Positions 13,709 through 20,225 of a DNA stretch of 64,000 nt are shown here, piece by piece. Every line of letters begins with the position of its first letter. The first letter of the stretch is position 1. The notes beneath the pieces are model-generated. The model did no database searches, was not told where the DNA came from, and was given only the letters and a program-made list of their open reading frames with translations. Source of the DNA: Chthonomonadaceae bacterium (GTDB lineage: Bacteria > Armatimonadota > Fimbriimonadia > Fimbriimonadales > Fimbriimonadaceae); NCBI GenBank assembly GCA_015709495.1, contig CP054189.1, positions 2,728,001 through 2,792,000 on the forward strand, in the 5' to 3' direction. The position numbers and the translations under genes are program-made.

Positions 13709-15040
13709 TCAGGCCACCCAGAACCGCTCGGAAGAGGCCGGACGAATCGAATTTCGAAGCCAAGGCTCGAACACCAACGTCGGGCTGTCGATCTTGGATT
13801 GGAGGACCTCGATCGCCTTGCGGAGTTGGTTGTCCGACTCGGGTTTGCCAAACGGGTTGGTCCCTCCGTTGGGTTCGAACTCCACGACGACGTCCGGTTC
13901 GAGTCCGCCGGAGACGTACTGGCCGTCCTCATCCACTTTTCGGCTGATGTCGAGGCCGCTGGGCAGGTAGTACCGCGCGATCGTGATCTTGGCGAGAGCC
14001 CCATCGACAAGGGGTACCGGCGCTTGAACGGAGGCCTTTCCGTAGGTGTGCTCACCCACGAGCGTGGCGAGGCGGTAGTCCTTGAGAACGCCCGCGAAAA
14101 TCTCAGCGGCGCTGGCAGATTCCCCGTCGATCAGCACCACCACGGGCTTCTCAACCTTGATACCGCGCCCCTTCCCTGTCCGAGCGACCTCCTCGGTGCC
14201 GTCCCTCATCTTCATCTTGACGACCACCTTGTTGTTCACGAAGTGTTCGAGCATCACGACGGCGACTTCGAGCAGCCCGCCCGGATTGCCGCGGAGGTCG
14301 ATGACGAAGCCCTTGGCCTGTTGCGCGCTGAGCTTGGACAAGGCGTTCGCGAACTGTTCGGTCGTCGGTTCGGAGAAGCTGATGACCGAGACGTAGCCGA
14401 TAAGCGCTCCCTCGATCATCTTGAACTCGACGCTCGGTGTGACAACCGGCTCGCGCTTCAAGCGCACCTTGAACGGCTTTTCGACCCCTTTGCGGATGAG
14501 TTCTAAGCTGACGAAGGTCCCCGCTTCGCCCCGAATCAACTTGACGATCTCCGTCGTGGGCAAGCCCCCGACCGACTTCCCATCGACTCCGACGATCGTG
14601 TCCCCCGCCCTGACTCCGCCTCGGCGGGCCGGGCCCTCTTCGAACACAGTATCGACCCGCGCGCCGAGGGGATCCCCTTGCAACCTCGCCCCAATGCCCA
14701 CGAATTTGCCTCGGGTCTCGAGGTCGAACTCCTTGGCGATTTGGGGTTCGAGGTACTGCGTATGGGGGTCGCCCAGCGAGTTCATTAGCCCACCCAAACC
14801 GGCGTACTTGAGTTCCTTGGAATCGACCTTCTTGTAATAGCCCGTTCGGATGTGGTCGAACGCTTGTACGAACATCGTCCTTGCCGTCACGAGCGTCTTC
14901 TGCGGCTTGCCGGTGAGGAGCGTTTGAACGGCTTCGACCGAAGGCGGGCGGCCCTGTTGAAGGTCGCGCCAAGTGAACCCGAACGCAAAAAGGGCAACGA
15001 GGCCCAAGAGAACGCCTAGCGTCTTGGTTAGGGCTCTCAT
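13709..15040 (-). CDS. ctpA: C-terminal processing peptidase (S41, CtpA type)
   Basis: 443 residues from the ATG at 15040, whose ATGA overlaps the stop of the upstream paralogue; an in-frame extension upstream lies inside that gene. N-terminal signal anchor (about 6-22), helical region, PDZ domain (about 100-195), then the protease core. The catalytic dyad is intact: Ser310 in S-A-S-A-A-E and Lys335 in T-Y-G-K, 25 residues apart as in E. coli Tsp. D-L-R-G-N-P-G-G precedes them. The enzyme cleaves near the C-terminus of periplasmic proteins. It is translated together with a related protein that lacks the dyad, which suggests the two act as a pair. C-terminal region after the dyad is typical in length. 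Confidence 0.93.
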   Translation of the reverse strand: MRALTKTLGVLLGLVALFAFGFTWRDLQQGRPPSVEAVQTLLTGKPQKTLVTARTMFVQAFDHIRTGYYKKVDSKELKYAGLGGLMNSLGDPHTQYLEPQIAKEFDLETRGKFVGIGARLQGDPLGARVDTVFEEGPARRGGVRAGDTIVGVDGKSVGGLPTTEIVKLIRGEAGTFVSLELIRKGVEKPFKVRLKREPVVTPSVEFKMIEGALIGYVSVISFSEPTTEQFANALSKLSAQQAKGFVIDLRGNPGGLLEVAVVMLEHFVNNKVVVKMKMRDGTEEVARTGKGRGIKVEKPVVVLIDGESASAAEIFAGVLKDYRLATLVGEHTYGKASVQAPVPLVDGALAKITIARYYLPSGLDISRKVDEDGQYVSGGLEPDVVVEFEPNGGTNPFGKPESDNQLRKAIEVLQSKIDSPTLVFEPWLRNSIRPASSERFWVA

Positions 15041-16326
15041 TGCCCGACCTCGCTGCTTGCGCGCGCTCGCGCTTTCCATTTGCCGATCCCTAACGTGTAC
15101 CCAGAACCGTTCGGAAGGGTCTTCCATTCCACAGCGATCGGCTCTTGGGGGAGCGAACCCGAGATCAGAGTTGCGCCGGCCCTTTCGACCAGCAGGCTCG
15201 CCAGCACGCCCGGAGCGCCTCGCGTATAGGCGTCGACTTGGACCCCAAGCTTGTAGGGGGCCGAAGCGCCTTTTGCCACCGTCACGGGGATTGGGGGCTT
15301 TCCGTCTTCGCGAATGAGTTCACCGTAACTGCCGGCAGGAACCAGAACTTCGAGGATGCCCTTGGCGATTTCCCACGAGCCGACGCTTGCCCCACGAAAG
15401 TCGAGCGTGACTTCCTTGCGGTCTTTCAGGGTCTCTGCGAGCATTTGGGGGACGCCGGGCGCAAGCCGAACGCGCAAAGAACCACCCTCGGATTGGGTGA
15501 CCGGCGCAACCCGGCTGGGTCCTGCGACGATCTGGGTGGGCAGCACCCTCTCCCCTCGATGCCAGCTCACCGACATCGCGCCGCTTCCGGTCGAAAGGCG
15601 CTGCATGGCTCTCGCTGGCGTAATGCTCTTTCTTGTCCTCTCGCGCAGGTCCTTACGGAGTTCATCCAGCTTCGAAACCGGCCACTCGCCCGACTGGACC
15701 TTTTGCTGGGTCATTCGCAACAGGTCCACGGTTTCCGCATCGACGACCCAGTGTCCGTCGACCGCCTCGACCCAATCTCCGGGTTCGACTCCCGCCTTAT
15801 CGGCGGGCCCGTTGGGAACGACATAGGTCACGAGAACTCTCGGAACGCGGGAGCCGCTAGCCACGAGGTCTCCGGGTTCCGCGGGCGGAGCGTCGGCCCC
15901 GTGAATCGGCTGAGGTCCCGCCGTGGGCGGCATTTCGAACACGAGTTCCGCGCCGATTCCCTCGAATTGGCCGCTTAATGCCTTCCGGTAGACAGGGAGG
16001 TCCTTGGCGTCCATGTAGATCGTCGTGGGGTCTTGTAGGCTCAGCACCATCCCTCGAATGGCGCCCGAAGCGAGCATCAGGTCGTCGTCGATGGGATCGA
16101 CGAACTCCCTTTTGAGCAAGCCCGCCAGTTGATCGAAATACTCCCCTTCAGGGATCTCCGTCTGGACGGCGCGAGAGGCGAGAAGCTGTTTGGAAGCTAC
16201 GGTGTCCGCGCCCGACCTCGTCAACCCCAAGTCGACGGCGTCGCGCACGCCTACGCCTAACACCACGGACGCTGCAGAAGCGCACACGATCCCGGTCATC
16301 AAGAACGTTTTCTGGGTTTCAGTCAT
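15037..16326 (-). CDS. catalytically inactive CtpA/S41 paralogue with PDZ domain
   Basis: 429 residues from the ATG at 16326. N-terminal hydrophobic anchor (about 7-27), a CtpA-like helical region (E-Y-F-D-Q-L...F-V-D-P-I-D-D-D-L-M-L), the D-P-T-T-I-Y-M motif before the PDZ, and a PDZ-like domain (about 105-195, P-N-G-P-A-D-K-A-G-V-E-P-G-D). A basic insert follows, then an S41-like core in which V-T-L-D-F-R-G-A stands for the usual D-L-R-G-N-P-G. Hand alignment to the coupled CtpA puts Gly at the nucleophile position and Glu at the general-base Lys. It should therefore bind but not cut substrates, as an adaptor or regulator of the downstream protease. This function is inferred. Confidence 0.75.
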   Translation of the reverse strand: MTETQKTFLMTGIVCASAASVVLGVGVRDAVDLGLTRSGADTVASKQLLASRAVQTEIPEGEYFDQLAGLLKREFVDPIDDDLMLASGAIRGMVLSLQDPTTIYMDAKDLPVYRKALSGQFEGIGAELVFEMPPTAGPQPIHGADAPPAEPGDLVASGSRVPRVLVTYVVPNGPADKAGVEPGDWVEAVDGHWVVDAETVDLLRMTQQKVQSGEWPVSKLDELRKDLRERTRKSITPARAMQRLSTGSGAMSVSWHRGERVLPTQIVAGPSRVAPVTQSEGGSLRVRLAPGVPQMLAETLKDRKEVTLDFRGASVGSWEIAKGILEVLVPAGSYGELIREDGKPPIPVTVAKGASAPYKLGVQVDAYTRGAPGVLASLLVERAGATLISGSLPQEPIAVEWKTLPNGSGYTLGIGKWKARARASSEVGQ

Positions 16327-16459: not shown

Positions 16460-19372
16460 TCATGGGGCGTGGGTTCCGTCTGGGTCGATTGGCGGGGGAA
16501 GACCCTTGATTCGGGCCAGTTCGAGATAGGCCGCTCTCACCCGAGGATCCGCGTCGCGTCGAGCGTTTTCAACCTCTTCGACGGTGACGGGTCCCAATTG
16601 TTGAGCAAAGGCCCTAAGCGCCGCAGCCCGGATTTCCGGCGAGCGATCGACCACCGCGATCTGCAGTCCAGGCCGAAACCTTCCATCGAACTTCGTAGCC
16701 AAGAACTCGAGCATCTGCCTTCGGACCTCGATGCTGTCGTCGCGCACACCCTTGAGCCCCTCGGCGACCAGTTCTTCACGGGTGGACTCCAGCAACCTAA
16801 GGTAACTCGCGAGCCGAACCGCATCACTTGGATCGTTGACCGCGCTCCAGAGCAGACGCCTTCCCCCAAGCGGGTGGTCTGGGTCGATGTTGCGCGTCGC
16901 AGCGTACCGGACAGAAGGGTCGATCTCGTGAAGAAACACGAGGATGACGGTCTTGGATTCTTGCGTGTCGAGGGCGCCAATGGCCAAGGGGCCTGCCTGT
17001 CGGGCCCGCCAACCTCGACCAGTGAGCAACCCGCTCAGGGAACCCAGCATTTTGGGATCGGGGTGGGCTCGGAAGGCGGAGGCGGCGAACTCACGGCACC
17101 AATCGAACGGCCCCACTTCTACGGCTCTCTTGAGGGCGGCGAACGCCTCGGGAGTCTCTTGAAACGTTAGGGCGGCGGCGGCGGCCTCGGAGACCCGTGG
17201 CGCAAGTCCTGCAAGCTCGCGGGCAAGGAGCGGGATCGAATCGGGGCTTCGCAATCGCGTTAGGGTCCAGCACAGATTCAGGCGAACGACCTCGCTCGGG
17301 TCTTGGAACAGCTTCAGCGCGGTCTCCCACTGTTCGGGGGTGGGCTCTTCAGGCAGTTGCGCCGCCCAGAGAGCGCGATCGAGCGGGAACTTGGAGGTCG
17401 CGTCGGGAGAGGCCAGCGGGATCGCGGAAATCGCTCGGCTCAACCCGTCGGGAGCTTGCGAGGAGACGATCAGGTCGTCGATTCGCACTTTCGGCAGTGC
17501 GCCGGGCTGCTTGGGAAACCAGAATCGCGCCGCAGGTTGGCTTTCGAGGATCACCGCACGAACCGGCATTGAAGACTCCGCGCCGGGCAACGAGGCAAGG
17601 TCGAGCATGACCTGTTGCCACGCCTCGGTGTCGAGCGTCGCGACCTCAAAACCTCGCGCAGGAGCGGTCGCCTCTTCGGGGTCGGGGAACTGCCCGAAGA
17701 TCGAGAAGGCGAGTCCCCCCCATGAGGGGTCCGCGGTTTCAAGCCGGATCACCAGCGGCTCGGGTTTCTCCGCCTTCACCCAAAACGTCAGGTAACGCGA
17801 CTTGGCCGCATCGAACAGAGTCGCGCCGCCCGGGCTCCCGGCAAGGTAGCTTCGATGGCCCCGAACCGCGCCGCGCAATTCGAGATTCAGAACCTCGCCC
17901 CTCTGAGCGTCGGAGACAGGCGAAAGCCCCCCCGATCCGAGCGAAGGAATTGCCTGCACCTGCCGCAAATCGAACTCCAGCTTAAGGGCGACATCGCCAG
18001 CTTGGGGGCTTATCAAAGGGGTTTCAAGGCCGAGAAGGTCGGCTTCGCGGGTTCCCCTTGGGATCTCCCTCACCCGGACGACGGCAAGGTGCCCTCCCTC
18101 GAAGGCCAGCCAACCGATCCATCTGCCTGCGAAATCCGCTTCCAGCTTGGGGATGAAGCGCTGAATCGCGCCGGGATCGACGCCGATCCAAGTTGGGTCG
18201 CCCGATCGTAGCAGGACTAGGGACTCCGTCCCCAACTCCATTCTGCCGTCGATCCCCCGTTCGGCCCGGGGAACTCCTTCCACCTGGAGCGCTTCGCGCC
18301 CTTGGGAGATCGAAAGGTTCGCGCCGATTCGCTCGCCGAGGGACGCCTTATCGAACCAGGGGAGCCGCGCGAACGGGTCTTCCGCGACTTCAGCGTAGGA
18401 GTATCCCTCCGCTCGGTCGAGGGCGCCCCTGCGGGCGGCGAAGTCGATTCCGGAAGCCTCCGACCTGAGGGTGAGGCTTCCAAAACCCGCCTGGGGGAAG
18501 CCCGCAGTTGGGTCGCAAAGAGGGGGGAGCGATTGGGCGAGGGCTTCGCCGTGCCAATAGGCGGTCTGCGGCCCGACCGATGCGGGAATCCGGTAGCCGT
18601 GACGAGATGCGGCGAAGCGCAGGTGCCCTGCCCAGGCGTTGTACATCGAAGCCGCAAGGCCATAAGGACCTTGGCCCTCGCCGTCGTTGTAGAAGGACAG
18701 GCTCGTGACGGGCGTTCGGTTGACGAGCGTGGTTCCCCCTCCCAAAGCTGGGGCCGAATGGACGAGAAACACCGAGTCGTACGGGCCGCGGTAAACGCGA
18801 TCTTCGGCCTCATAAGCGCCGCCATTGAATCGAGGGGTGAGATAGTCCTGAAGGAACGCCTCGCCGTAAGGCTGAGTGCGGGGCAGGGCTCGCGTGTGGG
18901 CCCATTCGGTGTCGATGGTCCAATCGATCGTGGCCCTCAGGTTCCCGCCCGCCGTAGCTTCGACCATCGACGCAAACAGGGCGGCGGCAGCCTTAATCTC
19001 TTCGAGTTCGCGGGTCACCAGGTTGCCTTGCCGAACCTGATACATCCCCAATTCGTTGCGGTCGAGCACGGTGCAGCGCGGCAGCACAAACAGCTTGACC
19101 TTCCACTCAGGGGTGGTTGGGGTGATCGACCCTCTTGCGATCTCATACGCCGCTCGCATCCGTGCCCAAGAGCCGAGCTTCGGGATCGGAACGACAGTTC
19201 CGTTTGTGGTCACTCTGAGCCCTTGGCCTTCTGCGAACGGGTCGGGCAGATTGGGGACCTTAGCCACGACCGAAGCGCCGCCGATCTCGTACGTTCCCAG
19301 CGGGACGAGGTCGTCTTGAGGCGACGGGCTTGCAATGGGCAACGCGAGGGCAAGCAAGGCGACAACGTTCAT
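16460..19372 (-). CDS. large secreted protein with jelly-roll-like and HEAT repeats
   Basis: 970 residues from the ATG at 19372, four bases past the mtnP stop. Signal peptide (about 1-20). The N-terminal half (about 25-420) has no recognised family; it contains a stretch with H-S-A-P-A-L-G-G-G-T and G-E-A-L-A-Q-S. A beta-rich stretch at about 480-690 resembles carbohydrate-binding jelly-roll modules (R-Y-L-T-F-W-V-K-A-E, W-Q-Q-V-M-L-D-L, I-D-D-L-I-V). From about 700 to the end are HEAT/PBS-type helical repeats (D-P-S-V-R-Y-A-A-T, D-S-I-E-V-R-R-Q-M, D-P-R-V-R-A-A-Y). The likely role is extracellular or periplasmic binding; no catalytic motif is visible. Co-directional with mtnP, and probably in its operon, although the functions appear unrelated. 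Confidence 0.7.
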   Translation of the reverse strand: MNVVALLALALPIASPSPQDDLVPLGTYEIGGASVVAKVPNLPDPFAEGQGLRVTTNGTVVPIPKLGSWARMRAAYEIARGSITPTTPEWKVKLFVLPRCTVLDRNELGMYQVRQGNLVTRELEEIKAAAALFASMVEATAGGNLRATIDWTIDTEWAHTRALPRTQPYGEAFLQDYLTPRFNGGAYEAEDRVYRGPYDSVFLVHSAPALGGGTTLVNRTPVTSLSFYNDGEGQGPYGLAASMYNAWAGHLRFAASRHGYRIPASVGPQTAYWHGEALAQSLPPLCDPTAGFPQAGFGSLTLRSEASGIDFAARRGALDRAEGYSYAEVAEDPFARLPWFDKASLGERIGANLSISQGREALQVEGVPRAERGIDGRMELGTESLVLLRSGDPTWIGVDPGAIQRFIPKLEADFAGRWIGWLAFEGGHLAVVRVREIPRGTREADLLGLETPLISPQAGDVALKLEFDLRQVQAIPSLGSGGLSPVSDAQRGEVLNLELRGAVRGHRSYLAGSPGGATLFDAAKSRYLTFWVKAEKPEPLVIRLETADPSWGGLAFSIFGQFPDPEEATAPARGFEVATLDTEAWQQVMLDLASLPGAESSMPVRAVILESQPAARFWFPKQPGALPKVRIDDLIVSSQAPDGLSRAISAIPLASPDATSKFPLDRALWAAQLPEEPTPEQWETALKLFQDPSEVVRLNLCWTLTRLRSPDSIPLLARELAGLAPRVSEAAAAALTFQETPEAFAALKRAVEVGPFDWCREFAASAFRAHPDPKMLGSLSGLLTGRGWRARQAGPLAIGALDTQESKTVILVFLHEIDPSVRYAATRNIDPDHPLGGRRLLWSAVNDPSDAVRLASYLRLLESTREELVAEGLKGVRDDSIEVRRQMLEFLATKFDGRFRPGLQIAVVDRSPEIRAAALRAFAQQLGPVTVEEVENARRDADPRVRAAYLELARIKGLPPPIDPDGTHAP

Positions 19373-19376
19373 GACT

Positions 19377-20225
19377 CTATTCGGGTAGGAGTTCGAACAG
19401 TCGGACGTCTCGCGGGCTCGCCGCGTGTCCATCGCCTCGGCTAAAAGTCAGCGCCGCACGGGGTTGGAGGGTCGAAAGGTCCTTTGGCATACGCTCGATC
19501 AGGCTAAGGACGACCTTGCGGGCGTTTTCGGCGTTCGACTTGAAGACCTCGAGCACATCGTGGGCGGTGACGGCTTCCGCTCCCGCGAACACCCCGCTGT
19601 CGTAGTCGGTGATGAGGGAGATGTTGACGACCGCCATACCCAGTTCCCGGCACAGATACGCCTCAGGGTACTGCGTCATGTTGATGACTTCCCAGCCCGC
19701 GCTGTGGAACCACTGGCTTTCGGCCTTGGTGCTGAACCTTGGGCCCTGGATCACCACCACGGTTCCCTTCTCGTGGCAGGGAATCCCGTGTTCGCGGATC
19801 GTTTCGACGGCGAGCCTCCGAAGTTCGGGATCGTAGGTTTCAGCGGGAGAGACGTGCGTCGTTACGGGTCCATCGTAGAATGTGTCCTTTCGCCCGGAGG
19901 TCCGGTCGACGAACTGATCGCATACGACGAAGCTGCCCGGCTCTACGTGCTTTTGGAGCGAGCCGGCAGCGCACGGACTGATGACCGCCCGGACTCCCAA
20001 CGAACGAAAAGCCCACACGTTGGCGCGGTAGTTGATCGCGTGAGGGGGAAGGGTGTGGGCACGGCCGTGGCGAGGAAGAAACGCGACGGCCCGACCTGCC
20101 ACTGAGGCGAGCGTGATCGAGTCGCTGGGGGGGCCGTAGGGCGTGTCCACCTTGATCTCCTCGACGTTTTCGAGAAGGCTGTAGAATCCCGATCCGCCGA
20201 AAACCCCGATCTCCGCTTGGCTCAC
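19377..20225 (-). CDS. mtnP: S-methyl-5'-thioadenosine phosphorylase
   Basis: 282 residues from a GTG that overlaps the upstream stop (GTGA). It splits methylthioadenosine with phosphate into adenine and methylthioribose-1-phosphate, the first step of methionine salvage, in the cytoplasm. Family-2 nucleoside phosphorylase features: G-G-S-G-F-Y at about 10-15, phosphate-binding R-H-G-R-A-H near 53, N-Y-R-A-N, S-P-C-A-A-G-S, G-P-R-F-S-T-K-A-E-S, and N-M-T-Q-Y-P-E-A for the base. I-T-D-Y-D follows, as in MTA-specific rather than guanosine/inosine enzymes. The upstream partner is a BtuF-like lipoprotein and the downstream one a large secreted protein, an unusual setting. Other salvage genes (mtnA, mtnK) are not in the window. 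Confidence 0.93.
   Translation of the reverse strand: MSQAEIGVFGGSGFYSLLENVEEIKVDTPYGPPSDSITLASVAGRAVAFLPRHGRAHTLPPHAINYRANVWAFRSLGVRAVISPCAAGSLQKHVEPGSFVVCDQFVDRTSGRKDTFYDGPVTTHVSPAETYDPELRRLAVETIREHGIPCHEKGTVVVIQGPRFSTKAESQWFHSAGWEVINMTQYPEAYLCRELGMAVVNISLITDYDSGVFAGAEAVTAHDVLEVFKSNAENARKVVLSLIERMPKDLSTLQPRAALTFSRGDGHAASPRDVRLFELLPE

Follow-up and report, generated by a model that had tools for sequence, protein, structure and literature searches.

A gene for a catalytically dead relative of the carboxyl-terminal processing proteases (CTPs) lies directly upstream of the gene for an active one, CtpA, and this dead/active pair is kept by selection across much of the phylum Armatimonadota. The dead member (gene A) can be taken, with moderate confidence, as a conserved pseudoprotease of the CTP family, i.e. 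a dedicated inactive subunit that works with CtpA (gene B) in a hetero-oligomer. The pair was read in a window of 64,000 nucleotides (the whole stretch of DNA analysed) belonging to a genome of 2.9 Mb, assembled as a single contig and assigned to the Fimbriimonadaceae within that phylum; four more places in the same genome have a Peptidase_S41 domain, all of them away from the pair. An earlier note on the window had described the two as a CtpA protease and a catalytically dead paralogue that are translated jointly, a description that was right and, given that the pair is found again in a large part of one phylum, understated. The features of the locus are collected in Table 1.

Table 1. Features of the A/B locus (positions are those of the window)
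Feature	Position	Strand	Basis
Gene A, catalytically dead CTP/S41 paralogue, 429 aa (P0001)	15037..16326	(-)	
Gene B, CtpA-type carboxyl-terminal processing protease, 443 aa (P0002), intact Ser-Lys-Gln	13709..15040	(-)	
ATGA overlap of A stop and B start	15037..15040	(-)	from sequence
A Gly370 codon, position of the catalytic Ser	15217..15219	(-)	
A Glu395 codon, position of the catalytic Lys	15142..15144	(-)	
B Ser310 codon, nucleophile	14111..14113	(-)	
B Lys335 codon, general base	14036..14038	(-)	
A residues 58-99, helices of the N-terminal dimerisation region (NDR)	16030..16155	(-)	
A residues 163-215, PDZ domain with the A-specific Trp193	15682..15840	(-)	
HEAT-repeat gene upstream of A, co-directional, signal-like N terminus (by eye)	16460..19432	(-)	

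Both reading frames were found where the earlier note had placed them, and the ATGA said to join them is present. Such -4 overlaps are frequent in bacterial operons. Among 121 A/B pairs from as many genomes (see below), 75 had the -4 overlap, 36 further pairs had the B start codon between -3 and +25 from the A stop, and 10 were arranged otherwise. The overlap was seen in 72 of the 82 pairs from the window's order versus 3 of the 39 outside that order, so tight coupling is mainly a trait of this order.

The downstream protein had been credited with a Ser310/Lys335 dyad at a spacing of 25 residues, and this was found in B, along with the third catalytic residue, Gln339, in the aligned columns. 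B matched PF03572 (Peptidase_S41) at 2.6e-49, with 167 bits against a cut-off of 24, and TIGR00225 (the prc family) with 286 bits against a cut-off of 218.6. The best solved structural matches of its predicted model were CTPs (Z 34-38), and the solved protein closest to it in sequence was CtpB of B. subtilis (8.5e-54). Also among the structural matches was IRBP/RBP3, a eukaryotic retinoid binder that has the S41 fold and is not a protease; to our knowledge it is not paired with an active CTP. With its Ser-Lys-Gln residues, its PDZ domain and scores above the curated cut-offs, gene B is an ordinary CtpA.

Gene A is a homologue of the S41 fold and has the core fold and domain order of a CTP: an N-terminal hydrophobic anchor, CtpB_N-like helices, a PDZ domain and a degenerate S41 core, without a C-terminal dimerisation tail. 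Taken alone, the A protein of the window matched PF22694 (CtpB_N-like; 3.6e-8) and PDZ_6 (2.3e-9) above cut-off; the anchor and the PDZ domain that it was said to keep are both there. It gave no Pfam Peptidase_S41 match up to an E value of 1, which meant that more evidence was needed before an S41 core could be claimed. An AlphaFold2 model made with an alignment of 80 sequences reached a mean pLDDT of 87 and a pTM of 0.81, and the solved structures nearest to it were all CTPs, namely the D1 protease, H. pylori CtpA, P. aeruginosa CtpA and B. subtilis CtpB; the prediction that the upstream protein would model as an S41 fold was thus borne out. For the best 17 structural matches listed, Z ranged from 16.3 to 18.5 with 283-298 residues aligned at an rmsd of 4.5-6.6 (1fc7: Z 18.5, rmsd 4.5 over 286 residues). 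Five A orthologues from four other families matched PF03572 at 3e-34 to 7e-42, whereas an A protein from the window's own genus reached only 0.0018, below cut-off. The S41 core is therefore ancestral and has degenerated in the window's lineage, and the profile match claimed for that core fails for the window's A alone and holds for these five orthologues. By a simple threshold, a hydrophobic N-terminal segment was present in 83 of the 121 A and 109 of the 121 B proteins, the window's pair included. The median number of residues after the last core strand was 9 in A proteins of the window's family and a related family (f5), whereas the remaining A proteins had 46 and the B proteins 65; the C-terminal tail has since been lost from A in those two families. 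No TPR match was found in A, which with its PDZ domain and S41-like core is not a helical TPR adaptor of the LbcA/NlpI kind.

The alignment with S41 proteins and the conservation survey that the earlier note had called for gave a dead/active tandem in 121 Armatimonadota genomes. The set comprises aligned A/B pairs in which both genes were readable, and is not to be taken as a rate. One hundred stretches (L031-L130) yielded 88 of the pairs, A reading frames of 240 aa or less and partnerless loci being excluded; those left out were single-gene loci (L054, L065, L068 and L128) or cut or weak ones (L036, L062, L103, L121, L122, L123, L129 and L130). In all 121 genomes A immediately precedes B, both genes being on one strand, and a tandem read in so many genomes is far beyond chance. 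The window's A has Gly370 and Glu395 at the dyad columns, the Gly and Glu that had been noticed there, and not one of the 121 A proteins has both Ser and Lys. In the Ser column, 69 have Gly, 27 Asn, 12 Arg, eight Ser, three Asp, one Lys and one Ala; in the Lys column, 63 have Asp, 17 Glu and eight Leu, with the rest scattered. Lys occurs in its own column in a single A (L127), and there the Ser column holds Gly; the eight A proteins with Ser have Asp (seven) or Glu (one) in the Lys column. Gene A does not possess the Ser/Lys dyad of an S41 peptidase. Ser, Lys and Gln were all present in 119 of the 119 B rows that cover the catalytic columns, two further rows (L076 and L101) stopping short of them. 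In other families, several A sequences resemble GERTFGDGLVQT, with GETTFGKGLVQT-like sequences in the neighbouring B. This suggests, short of proof, that Lys was the first to go, in most cases replaced by Asp, and that the loss of Ser followed on several occasions.

In a tree of 97 rows with Chloroflexota as the outgroup, A formed one clade (SH-aLRT 100) and B another (91), and an arrangement in which A and B are held together as a group was not rejected (p-AU 0.44; 46 of the 97 rows, LG+G4); the duplication may accordingly fall inside the paired lineage or precede it. An origin of the pairs by chance or local duplication was rejected, A being one clade across families. Median pairwise identity over 1500 sampled pairs was 26% for A versus 36% for B; A evolves faster than B, yet it is strongly constrained. 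When the window was compared with another strain of its species, A showed 10 synonymous and one non-synonymous difference (dN/dS 0.034), B 12 and three (0.08), and the HEAT-repeat gene 29 and 15 (0.18). The figures for A indicate that it is not decaying; pseudogene decay was ruled out by this ten-to-one synonymous excess together with the conserved columns across 80 proteins. One A gene (L103, the same as L186, in genome G023) is interrupted by an in-frame TAA stop, possibly through an assembly error. Two genomes of 1.5 Mb (G047 and G029, loci L069 and L127) retain the pair with a very divergent A, the end branch of L069_A measuring 3.47 in the 97-row tree. In sharing ancestry with its active partner, having lost the catalytic residues and being inherited together with that partner, A resembles a prozyme.

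A search with an A profile returned, by hand count, ∼190 of 291 Armatimonadota genomes at E ≤ 1e-40, representing 21 of 45 family codes. The cut at ∼1e-40 missed one genome of family f12 (G142) and the whole of family f6, which also has the pair and whose dead A scored only 4.5e-33 to 9.8e-40. Scanning genome contigs with a single pattern gave 32 Armatimonadota loci, each holding both genes (in three cases cut or interrupted), and 24 other loci with one CtpA-like reading frame, in 23 of which Ser and Lys were present, L203 having Thr in place of Lys. In 17 genomes from 14 other Armatimonadota families, no second S41 reading frame lay within ∼1.5 kb on either side of the best CtpA locus, and the best CtpA kept Ser, Lys and Gln. 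Ten genomes picked for a weak A match, G141 among them, were checked for the co-presence of B. Two nearly complete ones (G129, 94%; G136, 97%) had neither A nor a CtpA-level match to B, so that both genes are apparently missing together, and a third (G053, 88% complete) likewise lacked both. In four (G184, G127, G022 and G110), B lies close to the start of a contig, where A would be cut off, and G142 and G146 have a further S41 match immediately upstream of B. Outside the phylum, at the sensitivity used, no A was found among 301 Chloroflexota genomes or among 119 Actinomycetota genomes (best E 4.3e-35). The best Chloroflexota value, 3.5e-48, came from two genomes that both have Ser, Lys and Gln, and the remaining genomes gave 1.6e-34 or weaker. 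A divergent A could score this low, as the dead A of f6 itself does, and these scores are compatible with its presence elsewhere.

P. aeruginosa CtpA dimerises through helices H1 and H2, with Leu69, Ala73 and Met77 at their crossing, and B. subtilis CtpB dimerises N-terminally in the same way, according to the accessible part of PMC8764530. The counterparts of these residues in A are Leu85, Ala89 and Met93. Across the 121 A proteins the three positions hold Leu/Met in 115, Ala/Ser/Gly in 112 and Met/Leu in 116, and in B the same residue classes occur in 117, 120 and 106 of 121, respectively. Since the crossing residues are kept in both proteins, both retain the dimerisation element. Covariation between A and B in the NDR (116 of the 121 pairs) was in the expected direction and not significant, since scores as high were reached by 6.5% of the random blocks and by 9% of the re-pairings; the top covarying pairs came mostly from few columns, which were taken as clade markers.

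For a dead subunit working with CtpA, the following course can be proposed. A and B would be produced in near-equal amounts, each with its anchor holding it to the outer side of the inner membrane, and A would pair with B through the NDR helices. As a permanently inactive half, A may keep B's dimer asymmetric and may position or license B's PDZ domain and cap, while its own PDZ domain would give the C termini of proteins another place to bind. The complex would then process or degrade envelope proteins of peptidoglycan remodelling, and in the Fimbriimonadaceae and one related family the upstream HEAT-repeat protein may deliver substrates, as LbcA and NlpI do. In the P. aeruginosa CtpA-LbcA complex only one CtpA per dimer is active, as the available text of PMC11021448 has it, and we infer by analogy that an A-B dimer would be this one-active-one-inactive asymmetry fixed in the genome. 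A role in substrate selection or gating, which the earlier note had raised, agrees with the dimerisation helices and PDZ domain still present in A and with the joint inheritance of the two genes, and for the effect of A on B we lean towards activation or licensing rather than restraint. A stronger version is offered tentatively, and we would hesitate to rely on it: an obligate hetero-oligomeric CTP in which the dead, PDZ-bearing subunit is needed for activity, in which Lys was lost before the nucleophile, and to which the HEAT-repeat protein delivers in the Fimbriimonadaceae. Against the pairing of A with B, A could also form homodimers through the same helices.

Restraint would mean that A is a dedicated inhibitor, pairing through the NDR and holding B at rest until a substrate or adaptor displaces it. 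The anatomy and conservation described above suit this as they suit a dead subunit, and CTPs are known in resting states from the accessible parts of PMC8764530 and PMC11021448. The column of His84, one of the key residues of the activated site in P. aeruginosa CtpA (PMC11021448, in the portion available), holds His, Tyr or Phe in 120 of the 121 B, but no more than 17 of the 121 A have His or an aromatic residue there. We nevertheless consider an inhibitor unlikely: near-equal translation would, in our judgement, be a costly way to restrain B, and B clearly on its own was seen in no genome of the paired lineage, the four B without A being those near contig starts. Less likely still is that A acts independently in the periplasm, as a PDZ scaffold or adaptor that has the S41 fold, makes no contact with the NDR of B and has only expression and substrates in common with it. 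In favour of this, A has a conserved PDZ feature of its own, a tryptophan (Trp193) found in 100 of the 121 A and in none of the 121 B, and other CTPs are served by adaptors of other folds, LbcA and NlpI (PMC8764530 and PMC11021448, as far as accessible); the retention in A of CTP architecture including the NDR, and the co-inheritance of A and B, speak against it. That A is a peptidase with another mechanism, for example with Asp replacing Lys, is highly improbable, for despite the frequent Asp in the Lys column and the constant company of Asp or Glu where Ser persists, neither column is conserved across A, and the window's A has Gly and Glu.

Of 64 loci from the window's family and f5, 50 have a co-directional gene for a HEAT-repeat protein upstream of the pair, at a median distance of 464 bases; an RpiB-like gene (named by eye) often lies between it and the pair and is absent from that gap in the window. 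By analogy with the TPR proteins LbcA and NlpI, the HEAT-repeat protein is a possible third component and candidate adaptor. A Pfam scan of ten neighbour genes from loci of other families showed that in L066, L236, L058 and L242 the gene next upstream of the pair encodes an M23 peptidase with a PcsB coiled coil; L236 also has FtsX further upstream and, on the downstream side, a polysaccharide deacetylase. MotA and MotB lie beside the pair in L228; unrelated neighbours were an adenylosuccinate synthetase in L244 and, in a locus of the window's order (L060), a DUF1559 protein. CtpA-LbcA and Prc-NlpI degrade cell-wall hydrolases (PMC8764530, in its accessible part), and neighbours of the M23, PcsB and FtsX type, which are in line with this, favour a role in peptidoglycan remodelling without making it general, since they occur in just a few loci, which belong to other orders than the window's, and not in the window. 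The proposed A/B complex would probably act in peptidoglycan remodelling.

Among proteases, ClpP/ClpR and the proteasome rings mix active and inactive paralogous subunits; these are large cytosolic rings and not envelope S41 CTPs. No published account of a dead S41 or CTP partner was found in a weak search, preprints and most subscription papers lying outside its scope. Dead enzyme partners as such are already known, as the trypanosome prozyme attests in the accessible part of PMC5201418. In trypanosome AdoMetDC-prozyme and DHS the active enzyme is switched on by binding to its own dead paralogue in a complex; these are unrelated eukaryotic enzymes with biochemical proof, whereas the A-B partnership is inferred (PMC5201418 and PMC3663545, each in part). 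P. aeruginosa CtpA-LbcA is similar in being a CTP with NDR-mediated dimers that degrades cell-wall hydrolases (PMC8764530, PMC11021448; sections available), and differs in that both its subunits are one gene product and its adaptor is a TPR lipoprotein, while in the Armatimonadota pair a catalytically dead gene of its own would supply the silent half. B. subtilis CtpB has the same domain order, N-terminal dimerisation and PDZ gating (PMC8764530, in excerpt), but is a homodimer with both subunits activated (PMC11021448, likewise). Why just one of the two subunits in a CTP dimer fires, and what keeps envelope CTPs from cutting at random, is still unsettled. With the silent half as a gene of its own, kept by selection in more than 100 genomes, evolution has already separated the subunits, and the role of the inactive one (activator, brake or substrate reader) is separable by omitting one gene, which is impossible in homomeric CTPs. 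If the proposed partnership is true, S41 joins the protease families with dedicated dead partners.

Other variants of S41 proteins were seen along the way. In the 20 weaker-scoring Chloroflexota genomes inspected, Ser was kept and Thr replaced Lys in seven of 21 rows. Those seven rows and L203 from the contig scan make up a set of loci (L203, L289, L292, L298, L299, L300, L302 and L304) that keep the Ser motif and have Thr at the Lys column (FGTGTVL-type), and this CtpA-like group may be an independent variant of S41 catalysis or a second group of pseudoproteases. Another Chloroflexota locus (L301) has two S41 reading frames within one 3 kb stretch, both with intact dyads, an active-active pair for comparison. 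In Armatimonadota genome G214, another dead S41 protein (L279) has Gly and Gln at the dyad and lies on a different contig from the active CtpA; no tandem was seen in its family, and on a long branch it groups with the single CtpAs, not with A.
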